A stretch of 39,183 bases of DNA from an uncultured Ignavibacteria bacterium (GTDB lineage: Bacteria > Bacteroidota > Ignavibacteria > Kapaibacteriales > Kapaibacteriaceae): contig CALMZQ010000142.1 of NCBI GenBank assembly GCA_937870915.1, positions 1 through 39,183 on the forward strand, in the 5' to 3' direction. Both the position numbers and the translations under genes were made by a program. This document shows positions 1-39,183 of this stretch, one piece after another. A model generated the notes under the pieces. The model ran no database searches. It saw nothing but the letters and a program-made list of their open reading frames with translations, and was not told the origin of the DNA. The stretch's first letter is position 1. Each line of letters starts with the position of its first letter.

Positions 1-3000
1 GTAAGACGAATGTTCACTGGGTTGATCGTTGAGGCTACCAACCCTGTGTCGGCCAGAAACTCCACGGCGGAGATCGTCACATCAGACCACGACAAATCAC
101 CAAGACATGCCGTGAATGTGAGGGTGGCAATCGTATCAGATTGTGGAGGAAGATCACTCTCCACCGTCACACGACGCATTACGCTGTCTGTTCCAACGTC
201 TACTGCAGCTTCATCTAGGACAAGCACACTTCTTCTGAATGCAAGATAGACTCGCGTTCTGGTCGTAGCCTGGGAGCGCAACCACTCAGCCCCCTTTGTG
301 ATCGTGACGGGAATACTCATCCTGTCACCAATATCGATGGAGTCTGATGGAGGTATCAATCGCACCTGAACCGTATCATCCTCGGGATCCGTGGTGTCTG
401 ATGTGTCACCGATTACTGCATAGAAGTGTATGGTAGCAACTGCTGTATCCGTTGATCCATACGCCGTGAGGATAGCTGTGATGTTTTGCGACGTTTGAAC
501 ATCAATCATCAACGTTACTATGATGGAATCGCCGGGTTGTAGTAGTTGGGGAAGGGGCTCAACAGGACCCAAGGACACGTTTGTATCGGAACCCAGAATG
601 CTCAAAGAATCGAGTATGATATCTGCAGTGCCGATGTTCTTCACACGTACAACATGCGTTGCTGTTCCAACCACTCTGATGGTGTCCGGTTCTCCAGATA
701 GTACGGCCAATTCAGCTCGAGCTGAATCCGGTGGACGAATTCCAACGTACTCTAACGTTGCTTGCGCAGATATCACTGTGCTCGTCCATACAGTAAAGAG
801 CGTCGACCGCAGGCCTGTATCACTCGGCGAGATCGTTGCCAGCACCGTCCACGTGGATCCACCGGCAACGATCACCGGCATCGGCTGAGTTGGGATCGTG
901 ATGCCTGGATCGAAGTACGTGATGCTATCGATACGAAGGGCAACAGATGACAGATTCACTACACTCAGAGAAACAGTTGTGTCCGAACCTACGGGGATCG
1001 TACCCGCAGATACGTTTTGCACAACAAATCCGGGTGTCGGCAGAACGGAGACGATAGTATGCGACTGCTCGAATTGACGCGTTCCAAAGCGTGCCTTGTA
1101 TACTAGCTGATGCGCCCCGAGCTGTTTGGCGCGGACTGCAAGACGAACAGTATCTGCGGCACCTGCATCAAGAGTAAACGTAGTTGCTGATATCGATGGT
1201 CCAATGATCCATGCCGGATCGGGCACAAGATCTTCAACGGCTATTGTCACCGTAGTTGAACGATCACCTCGGTTCTTCAAAGGTATTCGAATGGTATCGG
1301 GAGTATCTAGCAACACTGTATCCGGTGCAGGTGCTAGTATCACTACATCTGCCTGACGTGAGTCTACTCCATTCCACCGAACACGTGCATTACTCTGCGT
1401 TCCGTTGTAGTACAGAACAACATCTGCCGAATCAACACCTTCAACAATTGCAGCACAGGATAGCTCAATAGAAGACGTGTCCGTTGAAATGTTGTTCGGG
1501 TATCCTACGATGAGAAGGGGCATTCCGGACGGCTCAACAACAACACTATCTACACGGACAAGAGAAGGTCCGCTCCGCACGATCGTCATTGAGAGAGGGC
1601 GTGGCGATGTGAGTTCAATGTTTCCTGCATCTACATCAACAAGACTCAACTGCGTTGGCCTAGGTCCAACAACGGAATCGATCGAAACACCACGAAGGAC
1701 AACAACTGACGTATCGCCATCAACAACGATCAACACTGAGTCAACGAGGACTCCAACAGTCGATGGCGCCCAGCGCACCGTTACAGCCACCTGTTGTTTT
1801 GGACCGATTGCATATGGAGGCGTTATCGAAAACGAAACACTATTCGAACCCGCTACGGAGACTATTGACTCCACAGTAGCCGCTCGCAACTGGCCTTCGT
1901 TGGCTATCCTGATGATTCCGGATCCCGACCGACCGATTAACACCGTATCGAAAGAGATCAGTGTTGGCGATATCGATATCTGAGGGAGTGGACTCCAACG
2001 CAACATGTAGCAGTCAGGCATGGCACCCGCGTTTGGTGCTGCACGTTCCGGCGATAGTCCAATCGGAAGATTCTCTGATGTCGTCTGCCCGTACAGAACA
2101 AACTCAGCATCCCTATTTGTTGACAGCCACCGAGGCATATCAAGACCAGAGCCCGAAACATAGCTTCCATAGTTCATGTGTTTCAGATCCGCAGAGAGGA
2201 TGAACACAGCGGCATCGATAGCACCCTGGGGACCGGACTGCATCGCATCTGTAGTAGTGGCAAGCGAGCCGGATGTTTCAATGGCCACACAGATGTTGCC
2301 GTCTTCGTCTACACAGAGAGAACGGACAGTATCCGCGTCCGAACTACCGAGGTAGCTGGAGGCAATGACTGTTCCCGCAGCATCAACAATGCTCACAAAA
2401 CCATCGGTGGCTCCGGCCTTCGTTGCAGAGTACGAGCCCACGGTAGCAGGCAATAGAGCTGACTCCGTTGTTCCACCAATGATCACACTTCCGGAAGGAC
2501 CTTGTTGGGCATCAACCGGACGAATATCTTCATCGCCTTCAATCATGGTTGTTCGCAGGAGTCCACCGGAGATCTGCATAACCTGCACGCTCGCACCTCT
2601 GTGGTCACGCTCCGCAACAGGTGCGCCCGGAAGGTCGGCACTTTTTGTTGACCCTACAAGCACGAACTCATCATCACTCAGTGCGATAACGCGAACAATC
2701 TCATCATCTGCATCGCCCCCTGCATACGTAGCATACAGCACCGATCGTAGGTCTTGCGCGAGCACGAGCATAAAGCCATCGTCATCGCCCCCTGCAATAG
2801 CCTGCATAGCTGTTGGCGATGTCTGGATCTTTTCATCGTCAGTTGTCCCAGCCATCACCACGGATCCGTCGCTTCGAACCACTGTATGGTTCACGTGAAG
2901 CTTCTTCTCTGTAACGAACTGAAGAGAGGATATCACTGTTGACAGAGTTGAATCCAGCCGCATTACAACAACACGATTTGTTCCGTCATCATCGTATTCA

Positions 3001-3398
3001 ACAGTTGCAGTAGAAGCAAAGTCTGTACCTGTTGTACGAAAAACAACGATCACACTTCCGTCCGGATCTGACGTTACCGACAGCGCTTCATCATCCGCGC
3101 TTGAGCCGACATATGTTGCTGCATGTCGCCTTCCCTCAGCTGTTCGCCTTTCGAGTACCACATCTCGCCCACCAATCGGCGTGGTGCGATAAGCACCCGA
3201 GGTTGTTTCGATATCCACCGATTTTGTTGTGTAGATGCACAACACACCGCCGTTCGTATATGATGAAACAACAAGATCCTGTTCAGTTGCCGAGCCCCCT
3301 ATATACGTTCCACCAACCGATGATTGAGCAACGGAAAGCTGAGTACCCATGGTTAGACAGATACTCAGCAAAAGTGTGATAAGGGGGCTACTGGTCAC
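1..3398 (-). CDS. Secreted SBBP beta-propeller / choice-of-anchor D protein (3' end outside window)
   Basis: The minus frame is open from a GTG at 3398 to the window edge (at least 1132 codons). An in-frame TAG lies four codons upstream of the GTG, and the next downstream ATG (3350) would lose the signal peptide, so GTG is the likely start. Residues 1-25 form a signal peptide ending in LSVAQ. Residues about 26-470 hold repeated SBBP-like blades with motifs such as DGSVVMAGTT, DEFVLVGSTKSADLPG and DGFVSIVDA. From about residue 475 the pattern changes to ASPM/SPD2/Hydin-type beta domains (ISFDTVLIGRSGSGIIRI; 'VGSDTTVSLSVVNLSS'). The architecture resembles the secreted T9SS proteins elsewhere in the window, so a C-terminal sorting domain is expected beyond the edge but cannot be seen. 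It starts 22 bp after the Rieske stop, so it may be the last gene of that operon. The substrate and role are unknown. Confidence 0.85.
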   Translation of the reverse strand, partial: MTSSPLITLLLSICLTMGTQLSVAQSSVGGTYIGGSATEQDLVVSSYTNGGVLCIYTTKSVDIETTSGAYRTTPIGGRDVVLERRTAEGRRHAATYVGSSADDEALSVTSDPDGSVIVVFRTTGTDFASTATVEYDDDGTNRVVVMRLDSTLSTVISSLQFVTEKKLHVNHTVVRSDGSVVMAGTTDDEKIQTSPTAMQAIAGGDDDGFMLVLAQDLRSVLYATYAGGDADDEIVRVIALSDDEFVLVGSTKSADLPGAPVAERDHRGASVQVMQISGGLLRTTMIEGDEDIRPVDAQQGPSGSVIIGGTTESALLPATVGSYSATKAGATDGFVSIVDAAGTVIASSYLGSSDADTVRSLCVDEDGNICVAIETSGSLATTTDAMQSGPQGAIDAAVFILSADLKHMNYGSYVSGSGLDMPRWLSTNRDAEFVLYGQTTSENLPIGLSPERAAPNAGAMPDCYMLRWSPLPQISISPTLISFDTVLIGRSGSGIIRIANEGQLRAATVESIVSVAGSNSVSFSITPPYAIGPKQQVAVTVRWAPSTVGVLVDSVLIVVDGDTSVVVLRGVSIDSVVGPRPTQLSLVDVDAGNIELTSPRPLSMTIVRSGPSLVRVDSVVVEPSGMPLLIVGYPNNISTDTSSIELSCAAIVEGVDSADVVLYYNGTQSNARVRWNGVDSRQADVVILAPAPDTVLLDTPDTIRIPLKNRGDRSTTVTIAVEDLVPDPAWIIGPSISATTFTLDAGAADTVRLAVRAKQLGAHQLVYKARFGTRQFEQSHTIVSVLPTPGFVVQNVSAGTIPVGSDTTVSLSVVNLSSVALRIDSITYFDPGITIPTQPMPVIVAGGSTWTVLATISPSDTGLRSTLFTVWTSTVISAQATLEYVGIRPPDSARAELAVLSGEPDTIRVVGTATHVVRVKNIGTADIILDSLSILGSDTNVSLGPVEPLPQLLQPGDSIIVTLMIDVQTSQNITAILTAYGSTDTAVATIHFYAVIGDTSDTTDPEDDTVQVRLIPPSDSIDIGDRMSIPVTITKGAEWLRSQATTRTRVYLAFRRSVLVLDEAAVDVGTDSVMRRVTVESDLPPQSDTIATLTFTACLGDLSWSDVTISAVEFLADTGLVASTINPVNIRL

Positions 3399-4915: not shown

Positions 4916-6082
4916 TTAGTAGAAGATGTGGATCTGTACATTCCAGCGTTTTGCCTTGTACTGGTCGAGCAACTGCGGTGACTGACCTGTCTCTACGATG
5001 CGGTAGTCGGGTCGGATCTCGAGGAACGGCAACACAAACACTTGAGCTCCAATCACCCACTGTGTAACTGTGGATTCATATGCTGTAGGGGCTATGGAGG
5101 TAAGGGTTGCCTGTTCCGCACGACCTTCCAGATAGACTCCGTCAAACACCTTTACCATGAGTGCAACGATGGCATTGCGTGTATCGGCAAGTCCTTGTGA
5201 GTGCATCATGAAAACTTCGCCCATGAGCGACACGCGATCTTCCAGGCCAACGCCGGCAAAGACAGACGTCATGGTCATCGAATTGGCAGCCAGCACAGAG
5301 GCACCCACGTATGAATTCGTGATCGATGTGAATGTGTTATGATCGCTCACCACCAATCGTCCGCTATAGCCAACACTCCCGGGAGTGATCTGCCTCCCGT
5401 TGATGTTTACCTTGGCCAGATTGGTCATATCAAACACACCAGCCGAAAGACTCAGCCACGTTGGAGTAGCATAGGTGATCTCTGCACCATATTCTGCGTA
5501 GTTCGGTGCGATAAGGGGGTGGGCATATGCCGTATTATCGGCGATCTGTCTGATCATCATCGAATGGTCGTCATAACGCATTCCCATCGATGGCTGAAAA
5601 TGCCCTATACGAAGCTGTGGCCAGTCCTTGGTTGGTTGAGCAAGAACGGAGGCCGACCACGACGTTTGCCCATCATACCGTATAGGACCGGCATTGTAGG
5701 TACCCTCAACCGTTATCCCCTCCTGCGGTGTCCACGCCGCGTGCATGGCAACCTGCATGGGAAAGGTCTTGCGGGTGGAGCCAGAATCAATACCTCTGGA
5801 CGATTGCGCTCGTAGGTCAAGCCCATAGTTGAACGTCTCGTTCAAGGTCAGATTACTCTGTTGAAGGGGCTCAAAAAGTCCCCCGAGACCTATCGAGGAT
5901 GGCTTGACGATGCTCTCATCCATCATGGAATACCATCCAAGCTCGTTCCGTAGGCCGGCCCCCTGCTGATTCACATGGCAGTTTGCGCACCTATTCCCAC
6001 TCATCAGGGTGTACTGCGGAATTGCCAGCACAGCTGGGGCGGACAGGATGAGCAAGACAGCAATAGCGCCAAAGATTCTCAC
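4916..6082 (-). CDS. Cyc2-like fusion: monohaem c-type cytochrome plus outer-membrane porin
   Basis: A 388-residue protein. A signal peptide (about 1-20) is followed at once by a single haem-c site, C32-A-N-C35-H36, in the context SGNRCANCHVNQQGAG. The remaining 340 residues have the alternating pattern of an outer-membrane beta-barrel and end in an aromatic residue (IHIFY), as outer-membrane barrels commonly do. A short haem domain at the N-terminus of a porin is the layout of Cyc2, the outer-membrane iron oxidase, but other CxxCH-porin families share it and I cannot assign it firmly. It is the first gene of the run that continues with YceI and Rieske proteins. The divergent neighbour begins 160 bp away. 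Extracellular electron exchange is plausible; the electron donor or acceptor is unknown. Confidence 0.85.
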   Translation of the reverse strand: MRIFGAIAVLLILSAPAVLAIPQYTLMSGNRCANCHVNQQGAGLRNELGWYSMMDESIVKPSSIGLGGLFEPLQQSNLTLNETFNYGLDLRAQSSRGIDSGSTRKTFPMQVAMHAAWTPQEGITVEGTYNAGPIRYDGQTSWSASVLAQPTKDWPQLRIGHFQPSMGMRYDDHSMMIRQIADNTAYAHPLIAPNYAEYGAEITYATPTWLSLSAGVFDMTNLAKVNINGRQITPGSVGYSGRLVVSDHNTFTSITNSYVGASVLAANSMTMTSVFAGVGLEDRVSLMGEVFMMHSQGLADTRNAIVALMVKVFDGVYLEGRAEQATLTSIAPTAYESTVTQWVIGAQVFVLPFLEIRPDYRIVETGQSPQLLDQYKAKRWNVQIHIFY

Positions 6083-6242: not shown

Positions 6243-9200
6243 ATGTTCCGCTTGATATTCCTTACGCTATTCATACCCGTAGCGATGTTTGGCAGTTCAC
6301 TGCCTCGACCGCAGGTATTTATTGCAAATCAAGGTCAGTGGCCCGCAAGTGTTCTCTATGGAGCTGCAACGAACGATGTTTCGGTGTGGATCACAAAGAC
6401 CGGAATGATCCTTGATCAGTTTGGCAAGAGTGCCTCGGGGACGCAGCAGCACCATGCCGTTACCCTTAACGTGATAGGCGCCAGCGGCACTCCGGTGCTC
6501 GACGTTCGAACGTCCACTTCAAGCCCCGTCATCACCATGCAGAAGGCCGGTTTGAGCTCTTCTGTACTTCAAACAGCAACGTCTGTAATCGTTCGGAATA
6601 TTCGCCCTGGCATTCACGTAGAGTATGTCTGGGAGAACGGTGCGGTTCGTTACAACGTATTGGTTGACCAGGGAACACAGCTTCCTTCGCCACTCTTCAC
6701 AGTGACCGGGGCCAGCGACCTCTCGGCCGCAGCGGACGGTTTTACCTATACCACGTCTCTCGGCTCGATCGCGATGTCAGGTCTGGCTGCCTATGCCATT
6801 ACTCCCGACCAAAAACGTTCCGTAAAGCCCCTTGCACGGGGCTCCGAGATCGGCTTTGTTGTTTCCGATCGCAATTCATCTGAGGCACTCACGGTAGACC
6901 CTCTGGTTTCTGCACGTTCGATCCACGGAAGCGGAGTACAAGAGATAACATCGATGATGCTGGACAGACAGGGCAATGTTGTGATAGCCGGATCTACGAA
7001 CTCCTTTGATATCGAGATTCCATCCGGTGGAGCCACTCCGAATGGAGCAGCCGGTACTGATGGCTTTGTTGCCTGTCTTACGCCGGACCTCAAGACGATC
7101 ATTGCATGGACCTATGTTGCCGGTGACAGCAACGAAGTAGTGAGATCGGTTGTGGTTAGCCCCCTTGGCGATATTTGGGTAACGGGCGAAACCAACTCAA
7201 CGGACTTGCCTGTGTCTGCTGCCAAGGGCGGCAAATACTCCGGTACGGTTGATGGTTTTGTCTTCCGGTTCTCATCGGATCTCAAACGCATCCTCGCAGG
7301 GAAATACCTATCTGGGAACAAGGAAGACCTTCCGCACTCGATCGCATGCAACGCTCAGGGCGACGTACTTATCTGTGGCCAGACGCGCTCTACATCGGGG
7401 CTTTCCATCAGTGTTGGATATGACCTTTCACACAATGGCGGCTGGGATGCCTTTGTGATCAAGATCGAGAAGACCGGTGCTGATGTTGAGCACTTCACAT
7501 ATTTCGGCAGTCCGGGCGATGATGCATTTACGACGATCATTATAGACCAATCTGGCAACACCGTTGTTGGTGGATGGACAGCTTCAAACGAGCTGGAAAC
7601 ATTCCCAGCAAAGAGTCGCGTATGGGTTCCGGATGAAAAGGACTACTACTATGGCGGGCATTGGGAAGAGTCTGGCTCAAACCCGTATGACGTAGAATTT
7701 AATGGCGGTGCAACTGACGCAATCATCGTGAAATTCACCTCCGAGAGTTTGTTAACCTTCTCTACGTATTTCGGTGGCAAGGGAGAAGACAAAGCACGCC
7801 GTGTTCTTGCAAGCAAGGACGGACGTATCACGGTAGTTGGCACAACAACCTCCTCAGACCTGCCACTCCCCGAGGGAAGCGCTTCGGCATATCGTGGACG
7901 GTCCGATGTGTTTGTCTTTGGGCTTAGCCCTGACGGACTGCGCCTCAACAGCTGTCTGTATTACGGTGGCACGGGAAATGATGAGGCTGGTGATGCAGCA
8001 TTGGATGCAAAAGAGAATATCGTGCTCACAGGCAGCACAACATCCACAGATCTACCCCAGGCCGGTGCCGGCACATCTAACACCACGCTTGGCGCTGAAG
8101 ATGTCTTTTTAGCTACCGTTACGTCTTCGGAAGTTCTGTATTCAACCGTTATGGGTTGGATGGGTAACGACAAATCCACATCGATGGCTCTTGATGTGCG
8201 TGGTGATGTGTTTCTTGCCGGTATAACAACCTCTACATTGCCGGGACAAGCGCTTGCAGCGAATACCGACGGTTGGGTTGCAAAGTGGGCCTACGGAACA
8301 CTTGCCTTCCGCAACCCTGCGGCGGGTTCTGTGTTCTGTACGGGATCGCAAGTAACGATTTCCTGGATCACCGAAGAGATCGCCGCTACATCCACGTATG
8401 GTGTGGACTACTCAACAGACAATGGACTCACGTGGATGTCTGCAGCTTCCGGAGTAAAAGCAAAGTCCTATATCTGGAGCGTACCGTCACAACGACCTGA
8501 TTCCGGGATGGTTCTCCTGCGCGTAACATCAACCAATGGTCACGCTGCTCTCGGTTCCACTCCATTCGCCGTTGAGTCTGCACCAACCTTCACATCGCAG
8601 CCCACTTCTGCCGCGTTTTGTCCTTCCTCTCGCATTGAACTTGCGCCTGAAGTAGCTTCAACAACAGCCACGTATCAATGGCGCAAAAACGGTGCTCCGA
8701 TAGCAGGTGCCACTCAACGTATCCTAACGATTCCGTCTGCGCAGGTGGGTGATGCAGGTTCGTATGATGTGGTTGCAACAACGTCCTGTGGTACGTCTAC
8801 AAGCACGGCAGCTGTGATCAACGTTGCTCCGCAACCGATCATCACAAGCCAACCACTATCCGATAAGGTAGCCGAAGGCGGTTCTGTAATCCTACGTGTG
8901 AAGGCAGATGGCGAAGCACTCACGTATCAATGGAACCACAATGGAGCATTGGTTTCCGGTGCAACAGCGGACACCCTTGAACTAAATGGACTCACAAAGG
9001 CACAAGAGGGTACGTACCGGTGCGTAATCGGCTCTGCCTGTGGGAGCTCAACCTCAAGCGATGCAACGATTCTTGTTGGCACAACATCGGTCGATGAAGA
9101 AGAGTATACCAACGTCCTCCGTGTTTCGCCACAACCGGCATCGGACCTCGTTACAGTCACAACACCATTCACGTTGTCGGGGTTGGCTGTGGTCAACGTC

Positions 9201-9359
9201 TACAATGTAGAAGGCTTTAACGTTGGACGCCAAACGAGCGTTCCAACCTCTCCAACATCCTTCACGTTGTCGCTCGGCCACCTTCCACCCGGCTTCTATA
9301 GTCTTGTGGTAACTGACGGCACTACGCTACTTCGTCAGCTCTTGATGATCACGCGATAA
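6243..9359 (+). CDS. Secreted SBBP beta-propeller protein with Ig-like domains and T9SS sorting domain
   Basis: A 1038-residue extracellular protein. The start at 6243 is set by GGGAGG and gives a clean signal peptide (MFRLIFLTLFIPVAMFGSSL). Residues about 25-215 match the N-terminal domain common in SBBP proteins (FIANQGQWPASVLYG near its beginning). Residues about 220-690 carry beta-propeller repeats with motifs such as GNVVIAGSTNS, GDIWVTGETNSTDLP and GDVLICGQTRSTSG. Two Ig-like domains follow (about 780-955; YQWRKNGAPIAGA and YQWNHNGALVSGA). The last 80 residues form a T9SS C-terminal sorting domain (VLRVSPQPASDLVTV ... LPPGFYSLVV). The protein should cross the outer membrane by T9SS and remain on the surface or be released. 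The ligand is unknown; adhesion or polymer binding would fit. Confidence 0.92.
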   Translation: MFRLIFLTLFIPVAMFGSSLPRPQVFIANQGQWPASVLYGAATNDVSVWITKTGMILDQFGKSASGTQQHHAVTLNVIGASGTPVLDVRTSTSSPVITMQKAGLSSSVLQTATSVIVRNIRPGIHVEYVWENGAVRYNVLVDQGTQLPSPLFTVTGASDLSAAADGFTYTTSLGSIAMSGLAAYAITPDQKRSVKPLARGSEIGFVVSDRNSSEALTVDPLVSARSIHGSGVQEITSMMLDRQGNVVIAGSTNSFDIEIPSGGATPNGAAGTDGFVACLTPDLKTIIAWTYVAGDSNEVVRSVVVSPLGDIWVTGETNSTDLPVSAAKGGKYSGTVDGFVFRFSSDLKRILAGKYLSGNKEDLPHSIACNAQGDVLICGQTRSTSGLSISVGYDLSHNGGWDAFVIKIEKTGADVEHFTYFGSPGDDAFTTIIIDQSGNTVVGGWTASNELETFPAKSRVWVPDEKDYYYGGHWEESGSNPYDVEFNGGATDAIIVKFTSESLLTFSTYFGGKGEDKARRVLASKDGRITVVGTTTSSDLPLPEGSASAYRGRSDVFVFGLSPDGLRLNSCLYYGGTGNDEAGDAALDAKENIVLTGSTTSTDLPQAGAGTSNTTLGAEDVFLATVTSSEVLYSTVMGWMGNDKSTSMALDVRGDVFLAGITTSTLPGQALAANTDGWVAKWAYGTLAFRNPAAGSVFCTGSQVTISWITEEIAATSTYGVDYSTDNGLTWMSAASGVKAKSYIWSVPSQRPDSGMVLLRVTSTNGHAALGSTPFAVESAPTFTSQPTSAAFCPSSRIELAPEVASTTATYQWRKNGAPIAGATQRILTIPSAQVGDAGSYDVVATTSCGTSTSTAAVINVAPQPIITSQPLSDKVAEGGSVILRVKADGEALTYQWNHNGALVSGATADTLELNGLTKAQEGTYRCVIGSACGSSTSSDATILVGTTSVDEEEYTNVLRVSPQPASDLVTVTTPFTLSGLAVVNVYNVEGFNVGRQTSVPTSPTSFTLSLGHLPPGFYSLVVTDGTTLLRQLLMITR

Positions 9360-9370
9360 GGGGCTTATCG
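9354..9370. terminator. Bidirectional hairpin carrying both convergent stop codons
   Basis: CGATAAG (9354-9360), loop GGG and CTTATCG (9364-9370) form a perfect 7-bp stem. The left arm contains the TAA of the plus-strand gene and the right arm the TAA of the minus-strand gene. The apex is also a copy of AAGGGGCT (9358-9365). No U-tract follows on either strand, so it is not a classic intrinsic terminator. Confidence 0.35.
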
Positions 9371-15759: not shown

Positions 15760-15833
15760 ACGGTACTAGGTAACCGTTACTGTACGAAAGTATGGATGGG
15801 GCTGACTCTGTTTCTGTGACGGAGTCACAATCC

Positions 15834-17149: not shown

Positions 17150-17189
17150 CTACGTAGTCACCTTAGGTTTGCAGCCTATCCAAAGGGAA

Positions 17190-17227
17190 CTGCCAAGGGG
17201 GCAGGGCCCTTACTATCATTATGGGAG
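17190..17227 (+). promoter_or_regulatory. 5' leader hairpin and TCATTAyGGGAG ribosome-binding site
   Basis: CTGCC (17190-17194), loop AAGGG and GGCAG (17200-17204) form a hairpin, followed by TCATTATGGGAG at 17216-17227, four bases before the ATG at 17232. This repeats the arrangement found before the gene at 6243 (11 of 12 bases identical in the TCATTAyGGGAG block). It supports 17232 as the true start of the fibre gene. Confidence 0.4.
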
Positions 17228-26360: not shown

Positions 26361-29300
26361 ATGGCAATACGTCGAATTCTCGCGTTTTTGATTTTGGTGG
26401 GACTTATCGCCGTTGCTTTGCCTGCTCAAGACGCAAAGAACGTGAAAGATGATTTGGGGCGTCAGGGATTATGGAAGGTCTGGCTAACCCGTAGTTATGA
26501 AGAGAGTACAGATTCAACATTGGCACCCTTCTATCGAATCGTTACATACAAGGACAACATAGAGTCCGGTCCCTTCACCGATTACTTCAGGAGTGGCTCT
26601 TTATACCGAAAGGGGAATCTGATTCGGGTTGGGAAGCTGTCGGTACCTGATGGAGTTGTTGAAGTGTACCGGGAATCCGGCTCAATTGAGGCCCACGAGT
26701 CGTTCTACCGAGGCAAGCGCTCAGGCCCATACACGAAGTATGCTATCTCTGGAGCAATCACGGTCAGAGGCGAGTACGATGAAGACCGAAGAGTCGGTAC
26801 CTGGACCACGTTCTATGAGAGCGGTAAGGTCAAGTCTCGAGGGAGTTACGTTGACAACTATCAAGACGGAGAGTGGACAACCTATTTAGAGGACGGTTCG
26901 GTTAAGGAAACCAATCTCTTTGCTGACGGAAGGCTCATCGAGTGGTCAGCGCTTCTCGAGCTCTGCGAGAAGACGAGCACGCCAGAACGAGTTACTGATG
27001 CACTGCGATACTGGGAACAGGCGCGAACTGCTGTGTATAGTTCGTTTGGTGCAACCTCTCTACCAGCGGGACGATTGCATATGGCACGATGCCGTATTGC
27101 CTGGATACAGGATAATGAATCCCTTTCATTGCAACATCTCGATACAGCAATTCAAATCTTCCGCGGCGCGGGGGATGCCGGCAGATTGTCTCATAGTGAG
27201 GCGATACAGAAGATTATTGATTTTGCTCACGAGCAGTATGCAACGAAGCTCCTGACTCGCCTGACCCCAGTACTGATCGAGATCATGGATCACGACACTA
27301 CACTCGACTACGAGAGCTGTAAACGGCTTCTCGGTTCATCCTGTCGTAGCAACGTTGTGATCAAAGATCATTCCCTTCTACGAAAGCACGTGAGTTGGGC
27401 CTCAAAAAAGATCCCCCAACTTGCTACAGTAAAGGACTCAGCCTACACGACTGAGATGTATGGCATTTGGCATTCTCTCCTTACGGCCGCCTTTTTCATG
27501 AAGGAGTATGAGATACAAGCACAATGCCGACGCGAAGCAGAGGCCCTGCCTGGTCTAGAGAACAACTTTCGTGTTAAAGTACTGCGCATTGAATTTCTAT
27601 GTACTCGTGCCATGGACATTATCGCAGACTCAGCGATCTCTTGGCCCGAAAAGAAGATTCGCCTCCTAATATTTTTAGATGAGAGCCGTGCGATCGCGGG
27701 ATTGACGTATGGAGTCGAATTCTCTACCGTTGCTAAATATGGCATCGAAATGACAGACACTGCGTTTGTTCGTGCAGTCCTTAACAAAGTGCCCAAGAAA
27801 GGTGCCGTTGCAACTGCTAGTACGAAACACATCATCGCTGGTCATTACGTGTGGCTCTACCTAGCCGAACAGAACTGTGACTCAGCTCGAAGATATCTAG
27901 AAGAGGTTCGGTTGCATAGTGAAGCAACAGCGCAATCGTATCTCTATGATAGATACAAAGAGAAGGTAGAAAATTGCGGTAGAGCAGACTCCATACGTGA
28001 ACTCCCTGAGGTCGATTCGCTTCGCAGAAGCAAAGGAGAGATTACCTCATTGTCACTACGAGACCTATTGACCACTGTATTGACAAAGGACGCACCCATC
28101 TATCTAGCTGCCATTGCTGAGGGGGCAACATCTGAGCAACGTCTTCAGTCACTGCTTCTTGTTGATTCAATTGCGCCACTTCCATCAGATTCGGTCTACA
28201 TGGAGAGATATTCTCGGATTCGCCAGACGGTTCGTACGGCCGTCGAGAACAAGACTGAACCAGTTGACAGGGCCGAAGTACTGTTTCGTGTGTTACACGA
28301 CTCAATTCTAACTAAGTATGTGGTGAGTGTTCCTCTCCGTAGCGTGTTTGAGAGCGGGCAGTACAACTGCGCCTCAGCTGTGGTGCTCTACTCACTCCTT
28401 TGCAATGACTTTGGGATACCAATCACCTACTATACTTCTCCGGGACATATAGCATGTGGGATACCCGACAAGAACACGAACACCGTGATCCCGGTTGAGC
28501 TCACAGCTCCTGTAGACGGATTCAGGTTCCTTAAGATGAGAGACTCCCTCATTGCCCACCTACTTTCATTCAAGTTGATCACGCAGGACGAAGTAGATGA
28601 ACTAGGTATTGATTCGATCTACCGACAGTATTATGAACACAACCAAGTGAGGTCATTTGAGAGTTTGCTATCCGTGGTCTCCAGCAATGCATCATTTCGA
28701 GCTAGGTACGGAGACGAGGAGTTCAATGAACAGTATTACGAGAGCATCTTAAGGACCACTGTTCTTGATTCTTCTAGGAATCAATGGTCACTTCACTACA
28801 GATTGCTACCCTTGGCATTGGATTCAACTCTTGCTGGCAGATTCGTTAGAGATGCGCGGTACATGGCAGCATATTTTAACGGTCAGAGACATTTCGCCAA
28901 CATGGTTCTTCCGTTACTTGCTGGACTCGGAGTCATCGTCCATAGAAACGGCGGCGGCGTGTCTGTGGAACAGGCATTCCAGACCTTTTATGACCACACG
29001 CAGGAGGACAGCAACGGACTCGTATTGCGTCAGTTAGTTCAGACCGCGTATGCAGGCTATCGTCTCGGCATCGCGATGGAGGCTGGTCACACAGACTCTG
29101 CATATGCATATTTTCGAAAGTACTGGTCAGATCGCCCCATTGATCGTTATCCTGGCCTCGACCACGTAGTTCGGGCTTATGCTGATGATTGCATTGAAGA
29201 TGGGGCATACTCCACAGCGTTGTATGTAGTCGAAGATCGCCTTCAGAAAATAGCAACACCAACAGCGCAAACCGACCTTGTTCAGGTATCAGCGAAGATC

Positions 29301-29916: not shown

Positions 29917-32133
29917 CTACATATCCGCCTTCACCGTCACAAAGAAGCTACGGGGCTCGGCAGGAATAATGCCGGGTCCCGGATAGCTATCAGCTCTTCG
30001 GGTGAAGTATGACGAGCCGAGTACGTTGTTGCAACTCGCATCAACACTGATTGCTCCGAACGTGTAGCCAACGGTGATGTCCGCTACAGAATAGGCAGGA
30101 ATACTACCCGATACAGCGGATGCTGTATACTCGGCGTTGCTTGCATCACTGAATTGTTTGCCGATGAAGGACAACAGAAGGGATATCCGAAAGCCCCCTT
30201 CCTTTACATTGAGTCCGGTTCGTAACACGTAGGATGGCACATACTCAACGGCATTACCATCGATAGACGGATCGTCAGAAGACAGATACTCGCCCTGAAG
30301 AACAGTTCCATTGATGATCCAATGAATGGCCGGCAGTCCGAATCCACGCCAGAACATGGCTGTGAGGTCGATATCCGTTACGGCTTCGATACCTGCAGTG
30401 TACGCGTCGGCAATGTTTGTTCGATATCTGTATGGAAGGTAAAGGGGCTCCTCGTCACTTCGCAGTACCTCTCCGATCTTATCGTTGTACCGGAGATAGA
30501 ATGCGGATGCATCCCACGAGATCATGTCGGAGACCTGACCCCTCACGCCAAGGTCAAGCGTGTAGCCCCGTTCATCAGCGATGTTCGGATCGATCTTGAG
30601 ATTGGGGTTGTTGATGCGCAGATCGCTGAAGGTAATAGAACGATAGTTCTGTGTTGCATTGGCATAGATTTCAATCGGACCAATCATGTAACTCGCACCA
30701 AGTCCTACGAGCTGAATTGTACGCGATCTCTCTTGCTCTTCGTAGACAAGTGAGTCTACCACAAGATTGCCGGCTAGATCCTTCACACGCAATGCATAAT
30801 ATCCATCGGCTCGTGTTGTAATGTGTTCTACGCGCATGCCCGGAACAAGCCTGAACTCCGGTGTAACAGAAATGAGTGCCTCTGCAAAGAGTGCTGCGTT
30901 GTCATTTGGGAACCGATAGTCCGACCCTTCGAGTCGGCTGGGATTGGAGAATGAAAAGTCCGGACCACTTCCGTCCGAGGCATCACCTTGTTGCTGTGTT
31001 GTGGTGCCTCGATACACGCGCACTCCAGCTAACAACGACCAAGGGGCATCGCCCAACACAAGATCATGTTGAATCGTGGTCTCGTTGCCGATCGATTGAA
31101 ATGTTCCGTCGATCATCGTGCGTGGACCGCCTAGGTCAACAGTGTTGATCCTGTCGAGATTCCCAAGTGCCTGGCGCGAGCTAAGATTCCCAAAGAGCAC
31201 AGATCGCAATGATGTTCGTGCAGATATGAACCAATCGAGCGTGATCGACGCAAGATTCCAGTTCACATTGAACCAATTGCGTGCGCGCACGGACTGTGAT
31301 GGATCGGTCTCAAACATGCGGTCAGTGAGTCCACCCGGCTGATGGGCGAGGTACGTCATAAACGTGTAGTCTGCCCTGACTCTCACCTGTGATGTGATGT
31401 TCGTTGTTACAGCGGCATAAGCTAGATGTTGATGGAAGTCACTGTTCGGCCTCCACCCGTCTGCCCTACGGAACTGATACAACGCCACATAGTTTGTGCC
31501 ATCCACAGTACCGCCAAGGCGCGCAAAGGCTCCGGCAAATCCGAACGACCCAGCAGACAAGGACGCATCCGCTGCAAGGGGTGCCGTACGAGCCCCTTCC
31601 TTGAATACGAAGTTCACAACACCACCAAACTGTGTTCCGTAACGTAGGGCTCCCGCACCGCGAACAATGTCTATTCGCTCCAGTGCGGCCATCGGCGGAA
31701 CGTAATAGCTCTCCGGATATCCAAGTGGGTCGGCCGAAATGTCATAGCCGTTCTGTCGTGTTGTGAAATTCGATGTGCGATTCGGATTCAAACCACGACC
31801 ACCAATACCAAGCTGGAGGCCTGCGCCATCACTTTCCCATATGTTGAGACCTGCCACACCCGACATTGTTTGACGTGTGTTATTCGTAGCCGTGTTCGCG
31901 ATCACATTTTCAAGCTTGATCCGCTCAGTCTTCTTTGCAGCATAGATCGCGCCCGCTTCAATGTCATTCACTCGCGATATGAGAAAGGGACTAACGTGTG
32001 TATCCAACACATCAACGGTTGGAAGAACGAGCGTGTCCTTCCGCGTTCGTGTGCTATCTACCAACCACCGCTGTTGCGCCGAAGCGACGAACACGGCACA
32101 GAGTGAAACACCAACGATGAGGAGGATTTTCAT
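29917..32133 (-). CDS. TonB-dependent outer-membrane receptor, FecA-like
   Basis: A 738-residue protein. A signal peptide (MKILLIVGVSLCAVFVASAQ) is followed by a plug domain (about 60-190) with features seen in FecA-type siderophore/ferric citrate receptors: LGIGGRGLNPNRTSNF, a PLGYPESYYVPP stretch, and IDIVRGAGALRYGTQFGGVV. The remaining 540 residues form the 22-strand barrel. The final residues (SFFVTVKADM) do not end in the usual aromatic residue. It would import a metal chelate using TonB energy. It is the last gene of the DUF4856-imelysin-HTTM operon and overlaps the HTTM stop by 4 bp. The substrate is probably iron-related, but copper or other metals cannot be excluded. Confidence 0.93.
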   Translation of the reverse strand: MKILLIVGVSLCAVFVASAQQRWLVDSTRTRKDTLVLPTVDVLDTHVSPFLISRVNDIEAGAIYAAKKTERIKLENVIANTATNNTRQTMSGVAGLNIWESDGAGLQLGIGGRGLNPNRTSNFTTRQNGYDISADPLGYPESYYVPPMAALERIDIVRGAGALRYGTQFGGVVNFVFKEGARTAPLAADASLSAGSFGFAGAFARLGGTVDGTNYVALYQFRRADGWRPNSDFHQHLAYAAVTTNITSQVRVRADYTFMTYLAHQPGGLTDRMFETDPSQSVRARNWFNVNWNLASITLDWFISARTSLRSVLFGNLSSRQALGNLDRINTVDLGGPRTMIDGTFQSIGNETTIQHDLVLGDAPWSLLAGVRVYRGTTTQQQGDASDGSGPDFSFSNPSRLEGSDYRFPNDNAALFAEALISVTPEFRLVPGMRVEHITTRADGYYALRVKDLAGNLVVDSLVYEEQERSRTIQLVGLGASYMIGPIEIYANATQNYRSITFSDLRINNPNLKIDPNIADERGYTLDLGVRGQVSDMISWDASAFYLRYNDKIGEVLRSDEEPLYLPYRYRTNIADAYTAGIEAVTDIDLTAMFWRGFGLPAIHWIINGTVLQGEYLSSDDPSIDGNAVEYVPSYVLRTGLNVKEGGFRISLLLSFIGKQFSDASNAEYTASAVSGSIPAYSVADITVGYTFGAISVDASCNNVLGSSYFTRRADSYPGPGIIPAEPRSFFVTVKADM

Positions 32134-33428
32134 CGCGCACGCACCCAGTCATATCGATGGAAACCGAGCTCTTCACGAGCAAGATCTCGATCCGGATCAA
32201 TGAGTAGCGCACTAGGAGCACCATTCAGCGTAACCCATACTTCTGCGGTCACTCTTGGGTCCATCATTCCAAGTGATTGGTAGTGATCGTGAAGTTTATG
32301 TGCGAACTGTACGATCATATCCGGTTGCATGGACATTTGTTTCTCCTGATGCTGATTGAGAAACATTCCGTTGTCCACGTATCCCCTGCGTCCGGTTGCT
32401 CTATCCTCAACAGCAAAGGCAGCTGTCCCTGCTTTCTCCATCAGCATTACACGCCAAGAAAAACGATATCCTTCCTCCGTCCACAACAATTCTCCGGGAT
32501 ACAACAGATATCGCCACGGAACGAGAATCTGAATAACAAGGAACACGGCAAGCACCCACTTCAGTACGGGATAGCGCGGTGTAGGTACGACATCCTTTGC
32601 CACACGAGCCCCTTGAAAGAAGAAGACCAACGTCATGGCAATCATCACGAGTGGGAAGACACCTATCTGAAACATCAAGCCCGTTACTCCATGAAAAACG
32701 ATCACGGCAAGGTAGGCTATACCACGGGTGCTCTTCCGGGATAACAGAAATGGCACGCTCACATCGTAGACCATTCCGATCCACGCAAAGGCCCATGGCA
32801 GCCACCAAAGCGTCATGAGCGGTCCGATCAGTGGGAGATCGGATTGTGCTGGCAGCCATATTCGAAGGGGCATGGCATCAACGAGCCACGACGATGTAAT
32901 CTTTGCGATACCGGCATAGAAATACACAAGACCGATCTGGACCTTGAATACATCCAATGTCCACTGCGGAATACCCTCAACGCGAAGTTGCGGCCTTCGC
33001 CAAACATCGATCGAATACATTCGGTGCGCGGGAACCAAGCAGAGCAAGAACGCTACGAGACTTACAAAGTAGTAGTGGTTGAGGTAGTAGGTCTTATCGA
33101 TCAATTCTACATAGGTAAAGCACAGAAAGAACACAACGGCACTCACCCGGTACCAAGCACCGAGCATGATGCCCAGTGCAGCGGCTGTCATCACACCGAA
33201 CACCCAATACATTCCCGGTGAACCAAGCGAAACCACCCACTCAAATCCTTGATATGGAAAGTGCAACGTTGGTTGGATGTACTGTTCGTCTATCCATCCT
33301 AGCGCGATGAATCGAACACAAGAGATCACCATCACACAACCAAACAGCACCCGTAGCAAGGCTAGAGGTGCTGGTGTGATCGATCTGTCCAGATACGTCG
33401 CGATGGTTGTTCGAAAACTAATCGCCAT
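32130..33428 (-). CDS. HTTM-domain integral membrane protein (vitamin K gamma-carboxylase-like)
   Basis: A 432-residue protein with about eight to ten hydrophobic segments and a hydrophilic tail (about 330-432). The start at 33428 gives an 11-bp overlap with the imelysin gene; a longer frame would extend further into it. The N-terminal region (ALLRVLFGCVMVISC ... YLNHYYFVSLVAFLL, QIGLVYFYAGIAKI, WLVDAMPLRIWL) matches the horizontally transferred transmembrane (HTTM) family, related to vitamin K-dependent gamma-carboxylase. Bacterial HTTM proteins frequently sit with imelysin and TonB receptors in Bacteroidota. The reaction is unknown. Whether it carboxylates a partner protein such as the neighbouring lipoproteins is speculative. 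Confidence 0.9.
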   Translation of the reverse strand: MAISFRTTIATYLDRSITPAPLALLRVLFGCVMVISCVRFIALGWIDEQYIQPTLHFPYQGFEWVVSLGSPGMYWVFGVMTAAALGIMLGAWYRVSAVVFFLCFTYVELIDKTYYLNHYYFVSLVAFLLCLVPAHRMYSIDVWRRPQLRVEGIPQWTLDVFKVQIGLVYFYAGIAKITSSWLVDAMPLRIWLPAQSDLPLIGPLMTLWWLPWAFAWIGMVYDVSVPFLLSRKSTRGIAYLAVIVFHGVTGLMFQIGVFPLVMIAMTLVFFFQGARVAKDVVPTPRYPVLKWVLAVFLVIQILVPWRYLLYPGELLWTEEGYRFSWRVMLMEKAGTAAFAVEDRATGRRGYVDNGMFLNQHQEKQMSMQPDMIVQFAHKLHDHYQSLGMMDPRVTAEVWVTLNGAPSALLIDPDRDLAREELGFHRYDWVRAR

Positions 33429-34527
33429 CTCCGCTGCTATACGTAATGGAGATACCAAGGAGGGATGACATCTCGCTCTTCCAAAAACGTGTTAGCTTTT
33501 GCAATTCAGTGTAAAGGGGCTCAACAGACGTGGGGTTTGTGCTAACGAGTGTTGACAAAGGCGTGTTGGTTCCGAGTGTGGTAAATGCATTTTCAACAGC
33601 AGCGATCTGCGACTCTGTATCGGCGATAAGTCGTTCGCCATTCGCTACGGTCTTCAAATATGATCGGAAGGACGGGAAGGTGTCGCCCTCTGGCGTACGC
33701 CCATACCACAGATCTACGGCTGCATCGAATTGTGCCCGAGCTAGCGGTAACGAAGCACCGGCATAGAAACACTCTACCTTTGTTGGTTCCGCAACAGCCT
33801 GTCCGGCACGTTTACCTAATGGCAGTGCCACTTTATAGTTCTTCAACAGCTCGTAACCGATGTTCATGTAATTGAAGAGCAGACTTACTGAGCTTCCGGC
33901 ATCTGTTCCGGAACGATCGATGAATTGTTGACGGTAGGGACCGGTCCACGACGTAACAACCGTATGGATTTCTCTATAGATAGCATTTGCCACTGCAGAT
34001 GTATAGACTCTTCTGTTCACATTCGCTTCCCCACTGAACCTCGCGATGATCTCATCAGGTGTTCCGCTGTTCAAGAGATAGTCAAGTGCAGCAAGCCCCC
34101 TTGTATCTCGTTGGAAATTCTGAAAGGATGTATCGCCGCTGATAATAAAGGCTTCGATCGCTTCTGCGTTGGCAGGGAATGTTGCGATGTTCTCGACCAT
34201 AGACCCTAGAGCGCCTTCGGCAGGACCAAAGTCATAGGTCACGATTGACTGCCAATGGTTTGTGAGAGCTAAGACTGCCGAACGGAGGGTATCAATTGTT
34301 GCTCGGCTAGGCGAAGTGTTTGCAATGAGATCTGAACTGAGCCGAGAAACACGCAGAGCCTCTGCATCAACAACGTTCAGAGAGGGGATGATAAGCTTGT
34401 CCGCTACTCCACGAAGCATAGCCTGACGGTCAAAAGCATCCACAGATGTTCCGTTTCCATCATCGGAACATGACATGGTGATGAGAGCTATCGCAGATGC
34501 GAGCAGTATCGACAAGGAAAGCTTCAT
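33418..34527 (-). CDS. Imelysin-family lipoprotein
   Basis: A 369-residue lipoprotein. The signal peptide ends in the lipobox LITMSC (C20). The start at 34527 is chosen because it gives an ATGA overlap with the DUF4856 gene and a clean signal peptide. Imelysin features include FDRQAMLRGVADKLIIPSLN near the N-terminus, YDFGPAEGALGSMVENIATF, RGLAALDYLL, GTDAGSSVSLLFNYMNIGYE, ALPLGKRAG, and the terminal ITYSSGDGD. The GxHxxE motif of canonical imelysin/IrpA reads GLAALD here, with no histidine, as I recall for the Bacteroidota branch. Imelysins are alpha-helical periplasmic proteins tied to iron acquisition; no peptidase activity should be assumed. Confidence 0.93.
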   Translation of the reverse strand: MKLSLSILLASAIALITMSCSDDGNGTSVDAFDRQAMLRGVADKLIIPSLNVVDAEALRVSRLSSDLIANTSPSRATIDTLRSAVLALTNHWQSIVTYDFGPAEGALGSMVENIATFPANAEAIEAFIISGDTSFQNFQRDTRGLAALDYLLNSGTPDEIIARFSGEANVNRRVYTSAVANAIYREIHTVVTSWTGPYRQQFIDRSGTDAGSSVSLLFNYMNIGYELLKNYKVALPLGKRAGQAVAEPTKVECFYAGASLPLARAQFDAAVDLWYGRTPEGDTFPSFRSYLKTVANGERLIADTESQIAAVENAFTTLGTNTPLSTLVSTNPTSVEPLYTELQKLTRFWKSEMSSLLGISITYSSGDGD

Positions 34528-35624
34528 TGACGTCCTTGTGCGGCTACCCAATTCGTTTTGAAGGACTCCATTTCTGCGTCACTGAATCCATAGATCGCCT
34601 TCAATGAGCTACGGGCTTCAACTACTTTGGACAAATACGTCACGGGTTGTTGCCAGATCACGAACGACGTATACGGTCCATCTGCCGGAGCCTGAAGTAG
34701 TACGAGTAGTGCGTTGATCTCTGCATCGGTGATGATACGAGACGATTGAGGAACCGATTTCCACCCATGAAGGAAGCCAACACATTCACCGTATGAATGA
34801 ATAGCGCCGGCCCGCGTCTTATCATCAATGGTAGTAGCCGAGAGTCCGTCAACAACGGCATAGGTGTAGTTGATGACTGTAGCCATCATTGACCGTTCCC
34901 ATGTGGTACGCATCGTTGTAAATGCCGTGTTTCTGTCACCATTATAGTCGGATCCCGAGCGAACTGCTGCCTGGGCTGTTATGGCAGCATTCTTAAACTG
35001 TGTGTATAACCCCTTGCCGTCATTCTGATCTCGGCGAGCACAATAGGCAGCGGCATATTTGTCGGGGTTGTTCGTGGCCTTATCTGTATTCGGGAAGGAT
35101 GGATGAGCTCCAAAGGTGGCCACAATTCTGTCGATGGTTGCCAATGTGATATCACCACCCATCAATTTCACAGCATGATTGTAAAGGGCGGCTGCATAGA
35201 GCCCCTTTTCAATCAATTGCTCCATTTCTAAACCGTGTTCATCAAAAAGATAGCCGCTATACACACCTCCTGTTGAGGCTGGCGGAGCTGATTGCCAATC
35301 GTAGGACTTTCCACTTACGCGAGCGAGAGTGGCCATGTATTGATCCACATAGCTGGCATAATACGAGCCGGTAAAGGGGCGAATTGGCTCGTAGGCACCT
35401 TGCATTGCATCGATGGACACTGTTTTACCTTCTGTCCGACCGGTCTTCATGATCGTTGCCAACGTCTGCATGTCTGCCAGTAGGTTTCGCTCCACCGAAA
35501 CATTGGCTGTGAACGCTGTTGTGTCGTAGGCCGCCGGTACCACGAGCGGGTCGGGGTCAACAGAGCAGCCAGAGAAACCAACTAGAAAAAGGCCTAACGT
35601 GGCCAGTGCGAGAAACCTTGACAT
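34524..35624 (-). CDS. DUF4856-family lipoprotein
   Basis: A 366-residue lipoprotein (lipobox VGFSGC, C20) with AAGGG before the ATG. The sequence matches what I know of DUF4856 proteins: a conserved early segment (RNLLADMQTLATIMKTGRTE), then HGLEMEQLIEKGLYAAALYN and TWERSMMATVINYTYAVVDG. The fold is predicted to be alpha-helical and related to imelysin. DUF4856 genes are usually next to imelysin and TonB receptor genes in Bacteroidota, as here. It is the first gene of the operon, 50 bp downstream of a palindrome. A role in binding or delivering metal at the cell surface or in the periplasm is inferred from context. Confidence 0.85.
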   Translation of the reverse strand: MSRFLALATLGLFLVGFSGCSVDPDPLVVPAAYDTTAFTANVSVERNLLADMQTLATIMKTGRTEGKTVSIDAMQGAYEPIRPFTGSYYASYVDQYMATLARVSGKSYDWQSAPPASTGGVYSGYLFDEHGLEMEQLIEKGLYAAALYNHAVKLMGGDITLATIDRIVATFGAHPSFPNTDKATNNPDKYAAAYCARRDQNDGKGLYTQFKNAAITAQAAVRSGSDYNGDRNTAFTTMRTTWERSMMATVINYTYAVVDGLSATTIDDKTRAGAIHSYGECVGFLHGWKSVPQSSRIITDAEINALLVLLQAPADGPYTSFVIWQQPVTYLSKVVEARSSLKAIYGFSDAEMESFKTNWVAAQGRQ

Positions 35625-37513: not shown

Positions 37514-39183
37514 TCAGATCCCGGCTGCCTTTCCTAACCCTTCGCGGATTGGGAACCAAATGGTCTGCATAATTGCCGCATCTCGTGGCAGTGTGTATCG
37601 GATCACACCATCCTTGTAGTTATCACCGTTGTTGTCGTTCTTGATCACAATCCAGTTCGCCACAAAGGACACTAGACTATTGAAGAATCCGCTTGATTTC
37701 TTCGACTTCTTATCCAGAATGGCGATCTCGAGATCGTTGAAATGGGGTTGTACAACACCCGTACACGCACGTCCACGTATCGTGTAACTGAATGCCGCGG
37801 ATGAGGCAACGCCACTCTTAATCTTCACGTTCTCTGCGATGGGCAAAAACCCGTTGAGTTCTGTAACATCAAACCGGCCCAGGGTTCCTCGTGCTGATAG
37901 CATGTAGACCGGAGCCGTGAGTGGCATTGAGAATGTTGCTTCCATGGTTGACCGATTCAAGAATGTTCCCTTTGCCCATATGGTAAGGGGCTTCTCCATT
38001 TGATCATTGGTGTTACGCAGGTTTGTTGCGAGCACTTTGATCCCCTTCCACGTGAGAGTTGCCGGATCAACACTGTGCTTCCAACGTTCACCATACCGTA
38101 TTGAAGCAGCATCAATAACCACGCTGTCCACCGCGAGTACGAATGGTATCGTTTGAGCGAGTTCATTGGGCATACGTGCCGGTCCGGACGTGGGATCAAC
38201 ACGTAGGCGTCGATTACTCAAGATGTCGAGGTTCAACTCCCCAACATTGATTTTGCGAACGTGTAGCGCCGTTTGAGCTGTTAGTGAAGAAAAGTCTATG
38301 TCCTGCAACGTGACGTGACTTCCGCGCACGCGAAAGCGGTCGCTGTTATATGCCGTGCCCTTGAAATATGTTTCATCATCATGTGTAGGGCCCAGTTCAA
38401 AGCCCCCTATTGAGAGGAGTCGAGTGCGATACGAGAACAACACCTTTGAAGCTGAATAGGTGTAGGCGGTGGGGAGATGATACTCCACGGAGTCTATTGT
38501 CAGTGCTGAATCAACATCAGAAACGGTAACGTTGAGCCCCTTTACAAGAATGAAACGGTCACTCGAATACCGACGACTCCATTCGTCCAAGCGCACCATG
38601 ACACTGGCAATGGGTTTGACCTCCGGATGGCCTGCGCGTACGCTTATCCGTCCTAGGTCCAAGGAGAATCCACGGATCCGGCCGGCATATTCTGAGCCCG
38701 GATCATCGTCCTGATTTTCAAGTGAGGCATCGACGAGTCGAACACCATCGATGGAAAGGGGCTGAACGTTCGTTGGTACAAGGCGCACAAACAGGATGTT
38801 CAGAAGCGAATCCACATTGGGAATCTTGGGTAGTCTCACCACCGCTGTGTCGGGATGGGATACAGGACCTGCCACGCGAGCATCCCACGACCGTAGTTGT
38901 ATTGCCGGTCGATCAATCGTAATTGTTCCTAACGAGAGCCCACCCCCATTGATAACATCCCACGGGAGGAGTCCGGTAACACGTAACTCCGGAAGTTCAA
39001 TGCGAAGCGTACTTCCCAAGATCTCTGAACTATCGTGATAAGTAACGCTAATCCGACGAACATGCAGGGATCCCGTATAGTAGGTATAGTCGATATCTCC
39101 AATCAAGATGTCGAGCTTTCCATCCGACGCAGTCCTAGCCTCATTCCGAACACGTGTCTGAATGTATTCAACGATGGCACTAC
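37514..39183 (-). CDS. AsmA-like periplasmic protein, paralogue B (5' end outside window)
   Basis: The frame is open to the window edge (556 codons seen). Alignment with paralogue A shows that about 35-40 N-terminal residues, including the transmembrane helix, lie outside; the ATG at 39106 is internal. Shared blocks include IPNVDS, YGERWKHSV, NWIVIKNDN and DAAIMQTIWFPIR. The C-terminus is complete. The homology runs through the whole visible length, so the pair arose by tandem duplication with considerable divergence. Its function would parallel that of paralogue A; the two may form a heterodimer or handle different lipids, which is speculation. Confidence 0.85.
   Translation of the reverse strand, partial: SAIVEYIQTRVRNEARTASDGKLDILIGDIDYTYYTGSLHVRRISVTYHDSSEILGSTLRIELPELRVTGLLPWDVINGGGLSLGTITIDRPAIQLRSWDARVAGPVSHPDTAVVRLPKIPNVDSLLNILFVRLVPTNVQPLSIDGVRLVDASLENQDDDPGSEYAGRIRGFSLDLGRISVRAGHPEVKPIASVMVRLDEWSRRYSSDRFILVKGLNVTVSDVDSALTIDSVEYHLPTAYTYSASKVLFSYRTRLLSIGGFELGPTHDDETYFKGTAYNSDRFRVRGSHVTLQDIDFSSLTAQTALHVRKINVGELNLDILSNRRLRVDPTSGPARMPNELAQTIPFVLAVDSVVIDAASIRYGERWKHSVDPATLTWKGIKVLATNLRNTNDQMEKPLTIWAKGTFLNRSTMEATFSMPLTAPVYMLSARGTLGRFDVTELNGFLPIAENVKIKSGVASSAAFSYTIRGRACTGVVQPHFNDLEIAILDKKSKKSSGFFNSLVSFVANWIVIKNDNNGDNYKDGVIRYTLPRDAAIMQTIWFPIREGLGKAAGI

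Follow-up and report, generated by a model that had tools for sequence, protein, structure and literature searches.

A dialect-forming DNA word over-represented in one family of uncultured Ignavibacteria, a candidate self-DNA tag

The octamer in the window and in its genome

The contig CALMZQ010000142.1 of an uncultured Ignavibacteria bacterium (assembly GCA_937870915.1), analyzed here over positions 1 to 39,183 as the window, carries many copies of a short asymmetric word, AGCCCCTT, and of close variants. The original prediction, made from this DNA alone, counted at least 16 such octamers and six variants with a fifth C where roughly one would be expected, and described near-variants beginning with T or C as frequent. 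The exact word indeed occurs 16 times, 7 on the plus strand and 9 on the minus strand. In 100 dinucleotide shuffles of the window its count averaged 0.67 and peaked at 4, and none of the 100 reached 16. Under an order-3 Markov model it was the top-scoring of all octamers in the window (16 copies against 0.9 expected), and AGCCCCCT (12 against 0.56) and AGCCCCCTT (6 against 0.19) were likewise enriched. A scan for [ACT]GCCCC[CT]T gave 46 sites, from which all rows of Table 1 are taken, the AGCCCCTT rows being found by the exact-match count as well.

The genome-wide count that had been proposed as a check was run on the source assembly (G000; 3.32 Mb in 233 contigs), with the reversed word as the control. 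AGCCCCTT was present 597 times on the plus strand and 565 times on the minus strand (1162 in total), against 34 and 31 (65) for its reversal, and AGCCCCYT was present 2004 times against 93. The over-representation reported for the window is confirmed as genuine and extends far beyond it. In 219 kb of G000 there were 242 [ACT]GCCCC[CT]T sites, or one per 906 bases, and single-base variants counted over the same DNA delimited the word. At position 1, A is preferred over C and T, and G is not enriched; no substitution is tolerated in the GCCCC of positions 2 to 6; position 7 takes T or C, A and G being weaker there, and position 8 is T. This gives [A>C/T]GCCCC[T/C]T as the actual motif, found on both strands about once per 0.9 kb.

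It had also been claimed that the word uses both strands and several reading frames, and that selection acts on DNA rather than on protein. The strand counts above bear out the former, and motif sites occupy all six gene frames, as judged from crude gene calls whose coding fraction of 0.95 in G000 is too high. When synonymous codons were shuffled within genes, AGCCCCYT fell from 133 observed copies to 9.7 in G000 (209.7 kb of predicted coding sequence) and from 138 to 13.2 in a second family member, G014. Six-frame use and the deficit after codon shuffling rule out codon usage as the cause of the motif, and together with the sites that one species pair keeps at 68.5% identity, described below, they uphold the claim of selection on DNA.

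Table 1. Sites of the motif in the window
Feature	Position	Strand
AGCCCCCT site	288..295	+
AGCCCCTT site	552..559	-
TGCCCCTT variant site	1515..1522	-
CGCCCCCT variant site	2714..2721	+
CGCCCCCT variant site	2786..2793	+
AGCCCCCT site	3293..3300	+
AGCCCCCT site	3382..3389	-
AGCCCCTT site	5864..5871	-
AGCCCCTT site	6826..6833	+
AGCCCCCT site	7158..7165	+
AGCCCCTT site	9358..9365	-
TGCCCCCT variant site	10689..10696	+
AGCCCCCT site	11410..11417	+
TGCCCCTT variant site	11436..11443	-
AGCCCCCT site	11480..11487	-
CGCCCCTT variant site	11811..11818	+
AGCCCCCT site	12799..12806	-
TGCCCCTT variant site	13519..13526	+
AGCCCCTT site	14139..14146	-
CGCCCCTT variant site	14357..14364	+
AGCCCCTT site	14616..14623	-
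CGCCCCCT variant site	15209..15216	+
AGCCCCCT site	16134..16141	-
AGCCCCCT site	16557..16564	+
TGCCCCCT variant site	17196..17203	-
CGCCCCTT variant site	17494..17501	+
TGCCCCCT variant site	17710..17717	-
CGCCCCCT variant site	17912..17919	-
TGCCCCTT variant site	22882..22889	-
AGCCCCTT site	23702..23709	+
AGCCCCTT site	24637..24644	+
TGCCCCCT variant site	28120..28127	-
AGCCCCCT site	30192..30199	+
AGCCCCTT site	30442..30449	-
TGCCCCTT variant site	31041..31048	-
AGCCCCTT site	31591..31598	+
AGCCCCTT site	32607..32614	+
TGCCCCTT variant site	32865..32872	-
AGCCCCTT site	33514..33521	-
AGCCCCCT site	34094..34101	+
AGCCCCTT site	35200..35207	+
CGCCCCTT variant site	35374..35381	-
AGCCCCTT site	37985..37992	-
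AGCCCCCT site	38401..38408	+
AGCCCCTT site	38535..38542	+
AGCCCCTT site	38756..38763	-

No site lies between 17920 and 22881, which is most of a large open reading frame with DUF5907 repeats (17169-23318). Within this frame a different word, GGTGACCTAA, occurs five times between 18969 and 20382, spaced 321 to 381 bases apart. The window also holds a short tandem heptamer array (15703-15760; units TAACTAG/TTACTAG), and 9-mers of this array cluster again in three of the nine other 20-kb stretches sampled from G000 (L003, L007, and L009). In the same sample, the window plus those nine stretches (L001-L009), 4 of the 10 stretches together contain 15 copies of CTATTCGCTA, which is perhaps a second tandem repeat.

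Distribution and dialects within one family

The named relatives closest to one protein of the window are two Candidatus Kapaibacterium metagenome-assembled genomes (MAGs) and one Bacteroidetes MAG (64-68% identity), and the motif-bearing family is apparently Candidatus Kapaibacterium-like. Five loci of named relatives, pooled to 52 kb, contained AGCCCCYT 23 times against 1.1 expected. In a survey of 60 genomes that counts the window's own, AGCCCCTT outnumbered its control threefold or more in 19/23 genomes of the family and in 0/37 genomes of sister families in the order. A wider draw of 158 genomes from the phylum gave 548 to 2004 copies of AGCCCCYT in seven of nine family genomes and at most 336 in the 149 genomes outside the family; the word was absent in the remaining two family genomes, G012 and G017. 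Modest ratios at far lower density were seen outside the family, as in G198 (178 against 29) and G159 (58 against 7). G198 and a second member of its family f22, G145 (178 against 49), share this low density, for which terminator stems are our guess. No comparable word stood out in small samples (60-160 kb) of the sister families f2, f3, f5, f6, and f9, those of f2 and f9 being pooled. The motif is restricted to one family.

The family genomes that fell short of the threefold ratio are G012, G015, G016, and G017, and three of these show other words. G012 has CCNTGCCGCCYT at 248 plus-strand and 262 minus-strand copies (510), against 6 and 4 (10) for the control; this count covers 18 of the 23 family genomes, and none of the remaining 17 has more than 23 copies of the same word. 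A 126-kb sample of G016 yielded GGCCCCCTT 12 times against 0.6, and 95 kb of G015 yielded TGCCCCCT 11 times against 1.2. In fitted profiles, at a density of one site per 1.1-1.5 kb, the core is flanked by additional Cs, which lie to either side of it in G014 and for the most part downstream of it in G018; G012 has CC upstream and a single C downstream. Aligned without gaps and at equal length, CCWAAGCCCCYT of G014 and CCWTGCCGCCYT of G012 have CCW, a C, and CCYT in common, and may well be forms of one evolving motif. Related dialects of the word exist within the family, as is expected of uptake sequences. When site density was left free, the fits for 7/9 genomes ended up describing codon structure or composition, leaving G000 and G010 usable; at fixed density, G013 and G017 of eight genomes were unusable and were left out. 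One G014 stretch, L055 (G014:C1:1960001-1980000), is filled by a repeat array and was excluded from the fixed-density profile, codon-shuffle, and spacing counts, and is still included in the G014 single-base-variant, frame, and sample word counts. The array is probably CRISPR-like; words of one unit number about 159 in the sampled DNA of G014, and L055 is the sole G014 stretch in which repeat-unit words exceed 20. Titles and abstract openings retrieved on uptake sequences and natural transformation in Bacteroidetes name no such word for this lineage, and a search for AGCCCCTT itself gave no match.

Conservation, polarity, and orientation of the sites

Conservation was followed in coding DNA aligned around one locus, about 18 kb in all, with overlapping frames counted once. 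Between G010 and G000, which share 68.5% nucleotide identity, 12 of 16 G010 sites remain sites and 9 of the 16 are identical words, whereas ordinary 8-mers match exactly in 7.8% of cases; in the reverse direction, 13 of 28 G000 sites remain sites in G010. Sites are maintained in this one diverged species pair. It is scarcely credible that codon usage, composition, or a family of repeats produced the motif as a side effect, since the six frames, the codon shuffle, and the reversed-word control all disagree with that explanation, and the sites are isolated and their positions conserved in this pair.

In G014, a single-contig genome, 20 stretches gave a ratio of 99:72 by replichore strand, or 57.9% against 53.6% expected from dinucleotides, with the replichore limits drawn by eye from GC skew. 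The 20-kb stretches held 4 to 13 sites each, with no gradient by eye. Replichore polarity in G014 is near the value set by composition, and there is no strong polarity of the Chi or FtsK-orienting polar sequence (KOPS) type. A polar replication signal such as KOPS was rejected on the basis of this one genome.

The sites are not placed independently of one another. In six genomes (G013, G015, G016, and G017 lie outside this set), neighboring sites were in opposite orientation 451 times and in the same orientation 253 times (p=8e-14), and alternation fell below 0.05 in 5/6 genomes taken alone; the 5.6-kb stretch L025 of G012 was omitted from this count. The G012 dialect CCNTGCCNCC alternates as well (64 versus 37, p=0.009). 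Neighbors alternate because same-orientation pairs are lacking at short range. Compared with a null that keeps gene orientation, same-orientation pairs closer than 800 bp numbered 62 versus 101±10 in G000 and 8 versus 28±5 in G014, and opposite pairs numbered 128 versus 105±10 and 37 versus 29±5, respectively. Gene orientation does not account for this spacing. Same-orientation sites avoid one another within about 0.8 kb and opposite ones do not, which is a new observation. Among opposite pairs below 800 bp in four genomes, facing pairs slightly exceeded back-to-back pairs (136 versus 97).

A possible self-DNA tag and its rivals

On balance we lean toward reading the motif as an uptake-sequence-like tag of self DNA, with putative binding and uptake, which among the candidates named in the original prediction is the best fit. 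The facts that we count for it are the density, the dialects, the flanks, the low polarity, the upkeep of sites in one species pair, and their turnover in others. Like DNA uptake sequences (DUS) and uptake signal sequences (USS), the motif is a short asymmetric word found about once per kilobase, on both strands and in all frames, and in G014 it has no polarity beyond composition. Pasteurellaceae USS have a strong core and weaker flanks, as does the motif here. The DUS of Neisseriaceae are also short, asymmetric, high-copy words whose species versions share a core, in the accessible text of one report (PMC3630211); their sequence differs, and the avoidance between same-orientation sites sets the present motif apart.

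The genes expected of a transformable organism are present in the family: ComEC in 21/23 genomes, DprA in 22/23, and a ComEA-like HHH_3 protein in 22/23. As far as the accessible part of the report shows, Riemerella anatipestifer, in which no pilus genes are detectable, undergoes transformation and requires, for example, DUF5689, CarboxypepD_reg outer-membrane, HHH, and DUF1343 proteins (PMC8459023), and R. columbina shows a preference for its own DNA, again from a partial text (PMC7965970). Domain-level counterparts of ComEC, DprA, HHH, DUF1343, DUF5689, and CarboxypepD_reg occur in the family studied here. DUF5689 was matched in 20/23 genomes, with none in G001, G008, and G022 and, in G000, only two below-cut-off pieces at contig ends; DUF1343 (NamZ_N) was matched in 21/23, and 12 family genomes have both on a single contig, separated by about 7-10 kb. 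A CarboxypepD_reg barrel, a DUF4397 protein, and the DUF5689 protein adjoin in 9/10 family loci fetched. Unlike in Riemerella, for which the sources at hand, in the parts available, name no uptake word, the DUF5689 protein also matches a DNase-like endonuclease/exonuclease/phosphatase domain in G014 (above the Pfam cut-off) and in G012 (just below it, 24.3 versus 24.5 bits). Such fusions, with barrel and DUF4397 alongside, lie at L230:6321-8150 and L229:6406-8685. By eye, the catalytic residues of the DUF5689/nuclease-like protein look intact and its C terminus seems to resemble a type IX secretion sorting tail.

Several observations weigh against the tag reading. Site turnover is high elsewhere: of the G000 sites compared, 1/25 remained in G007, 0/26 in G013, 0/17 in G012, 3/25 in G014, 3/22 in G018, and 0/21 in G017, with 2/13 kept from G010 to G007 and 2/9 from G014 to G018. 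The check on conservation between related genomes that had been proposed was thus borne out by G010 and G000, and most other pairs kept few sites. Alternation was nonsignificant in G007 (31 versus 23, p=0.34). Uptake by Haemophilus influenzae is reported, in the part of the source available, to be independent of site orientation (PMC1939737), and so orientation-dependent spacing is no known trait of uptake sequences and distinguishes the motif from Pasteurellaceae USS. The type II secretion/type IV pilus ATPase PF00437 was found above cut-off in 0/23 family genomes, other pilus genes not having been searched. A type IV pilus receptor for the word was rejected on this ground, and with no such ATPase found, there would be no ComP-type receptor route as in DUS. 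ComEC, DprA, and HHH_3 are each present in 17/17 motif-free sister-family genomes as well, so these genes neither predict nor explain the motif; the proposed co-occurrence with competence genes holds in the family and equally in its motif-free sisters. G017, a congener of G012, yielded nothing comparable in 152 kb (CCTTGCCG, at 35 against 10.9, is a trace at most) and, motif-free as it is, retains ComEC, DprA, HHH_3, and the barrel cluster. The motif-bearing draft assemblies G001 and G008 are without a DUF5689 match, and G018 is the exception to the barrel arrangement. The full barrel-DUF4397-DUF5689 set recurs in motif-free genomes of f3 (G057 and G047) and f9 (G030), and barrel plus DUF5689 recurs in G024. 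Since sister families have it too, this surface cluster is a candidate importer and no more.

The strongest rival is a Chi-like signal, in which AddAB would read AAGGGGCT, the G-rich strand of the word, on a degraded DNA end and switch to recombination. Escherichia coli Chi is itself a G-rich octamer that is over-represented and is read in a single orientation, the octamer here resembles known Chi words, and an orientation-dependent reader could explain orientation-dependent spacing. PDDEXK_1 proteins of AddAB-like size, which from their size may be AddAB, occur in 16/16 family genomes searched, but the PDDEXK_1 family is also present in 10/10 motif-free sister-family genomes. The extended motif, a dialect over 12 positions, exceeds the length known for Chi. 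Chi is moreover strand-polar, and its spacing in E. coli K-12 is the reverse of that described above: among 99 sites, same-orientation pairs within 1 kb were enriched (25 versus 12.4±3.3) and opposite pairs depleted (3 versus 7.8±2.7). This control is suggestive, as it covers 500 kb of 4.64 Mb in one species, and it is weakened by the strong tie of E. coli Chi to strand and gene direction; a KOPS-like word and two arbitrary words were too sparse for comparison in the same 500 kb. With this control and the weak polarity in G014 disfavoring it, we consider a Chi-like role unlikely. The original prediction had dismissed Chi- and KOPS-like signals from the lack of strand bias, an argument that was quick, and both the G014 polarity and the E. 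coli control agree with its outcome.

An asymmetric site can mark one strand, so the word might instead be a putative target of an enzyme that modifies DNA or marks a strand, for instance an asymmetric methylation target serving strand discrimination or self-marking, with a HIP1-like origin. Spacing per strand would be useful to such an enzyme and would fit the data. Methyltransferase targets are seldom enriched twentyfold, however, and we find this quite unlikely. The cyanobacterial highly iterated palindrome (HIP1) resembles the motif in being a single over-represented octamer. It is a palindrome and the word is not, which makes the HIP1-like repeat listed in the original prediction a poor fit. 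Binding by an intracellular chromosome-organizing or replication protein would accommodate a genome-wide site on both strands with orientation-dependent spacing, but the G014 counts show no gradient by eye and a polarity near composition, and fast dialect change in one family would be unusual for an essential chromosome protein; this we regard as very unlikely.

If the motif is a self-DNA tag, a surface protein would bind double-stranded DNA bearing the asymmetric motif, recognizing the core [A>C/T]GCCCC[T/C]T together with the weaker flanking Cs, and would start import. Import may run in one direction from the bound site, in which case a second site no more than about 0.8 kb away would be redundant if it had the same orientation and not if it had the opposite one. 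The incoming single strands would pass ComEC and then recombine with the help of DprA and RecA. As no type IV pilus ATPase turned up in the family, the importer would need to work without a pilus, and the candidate is the outer-membrane barrel with the DUF4397 protein and the DUF5689/nuclease-like protein, whose domains are related to Riemerella transformation genes. A complete pilus-free system of this kind, which knows self DNA by a dialect-forming word and imports it directionally through the barrel and its DUF5689/nuclease-like partner, is offered tentatively and is at present doubtful.

To our knowledge, uptake sequences are known from two proteobacterial families, which pull in DNA with type IV pili. 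If the tag reading is true, self-DNA tagging evolved more than once, here outside the type IV pilus, and these uncultured bacteria would be marked as naturally transformable. The orientation-dependent spacing would then be a genomic trace of directional import, and as a simple genomic test of such import it could be applied to Haemophilus and Neisseria genomes as well.

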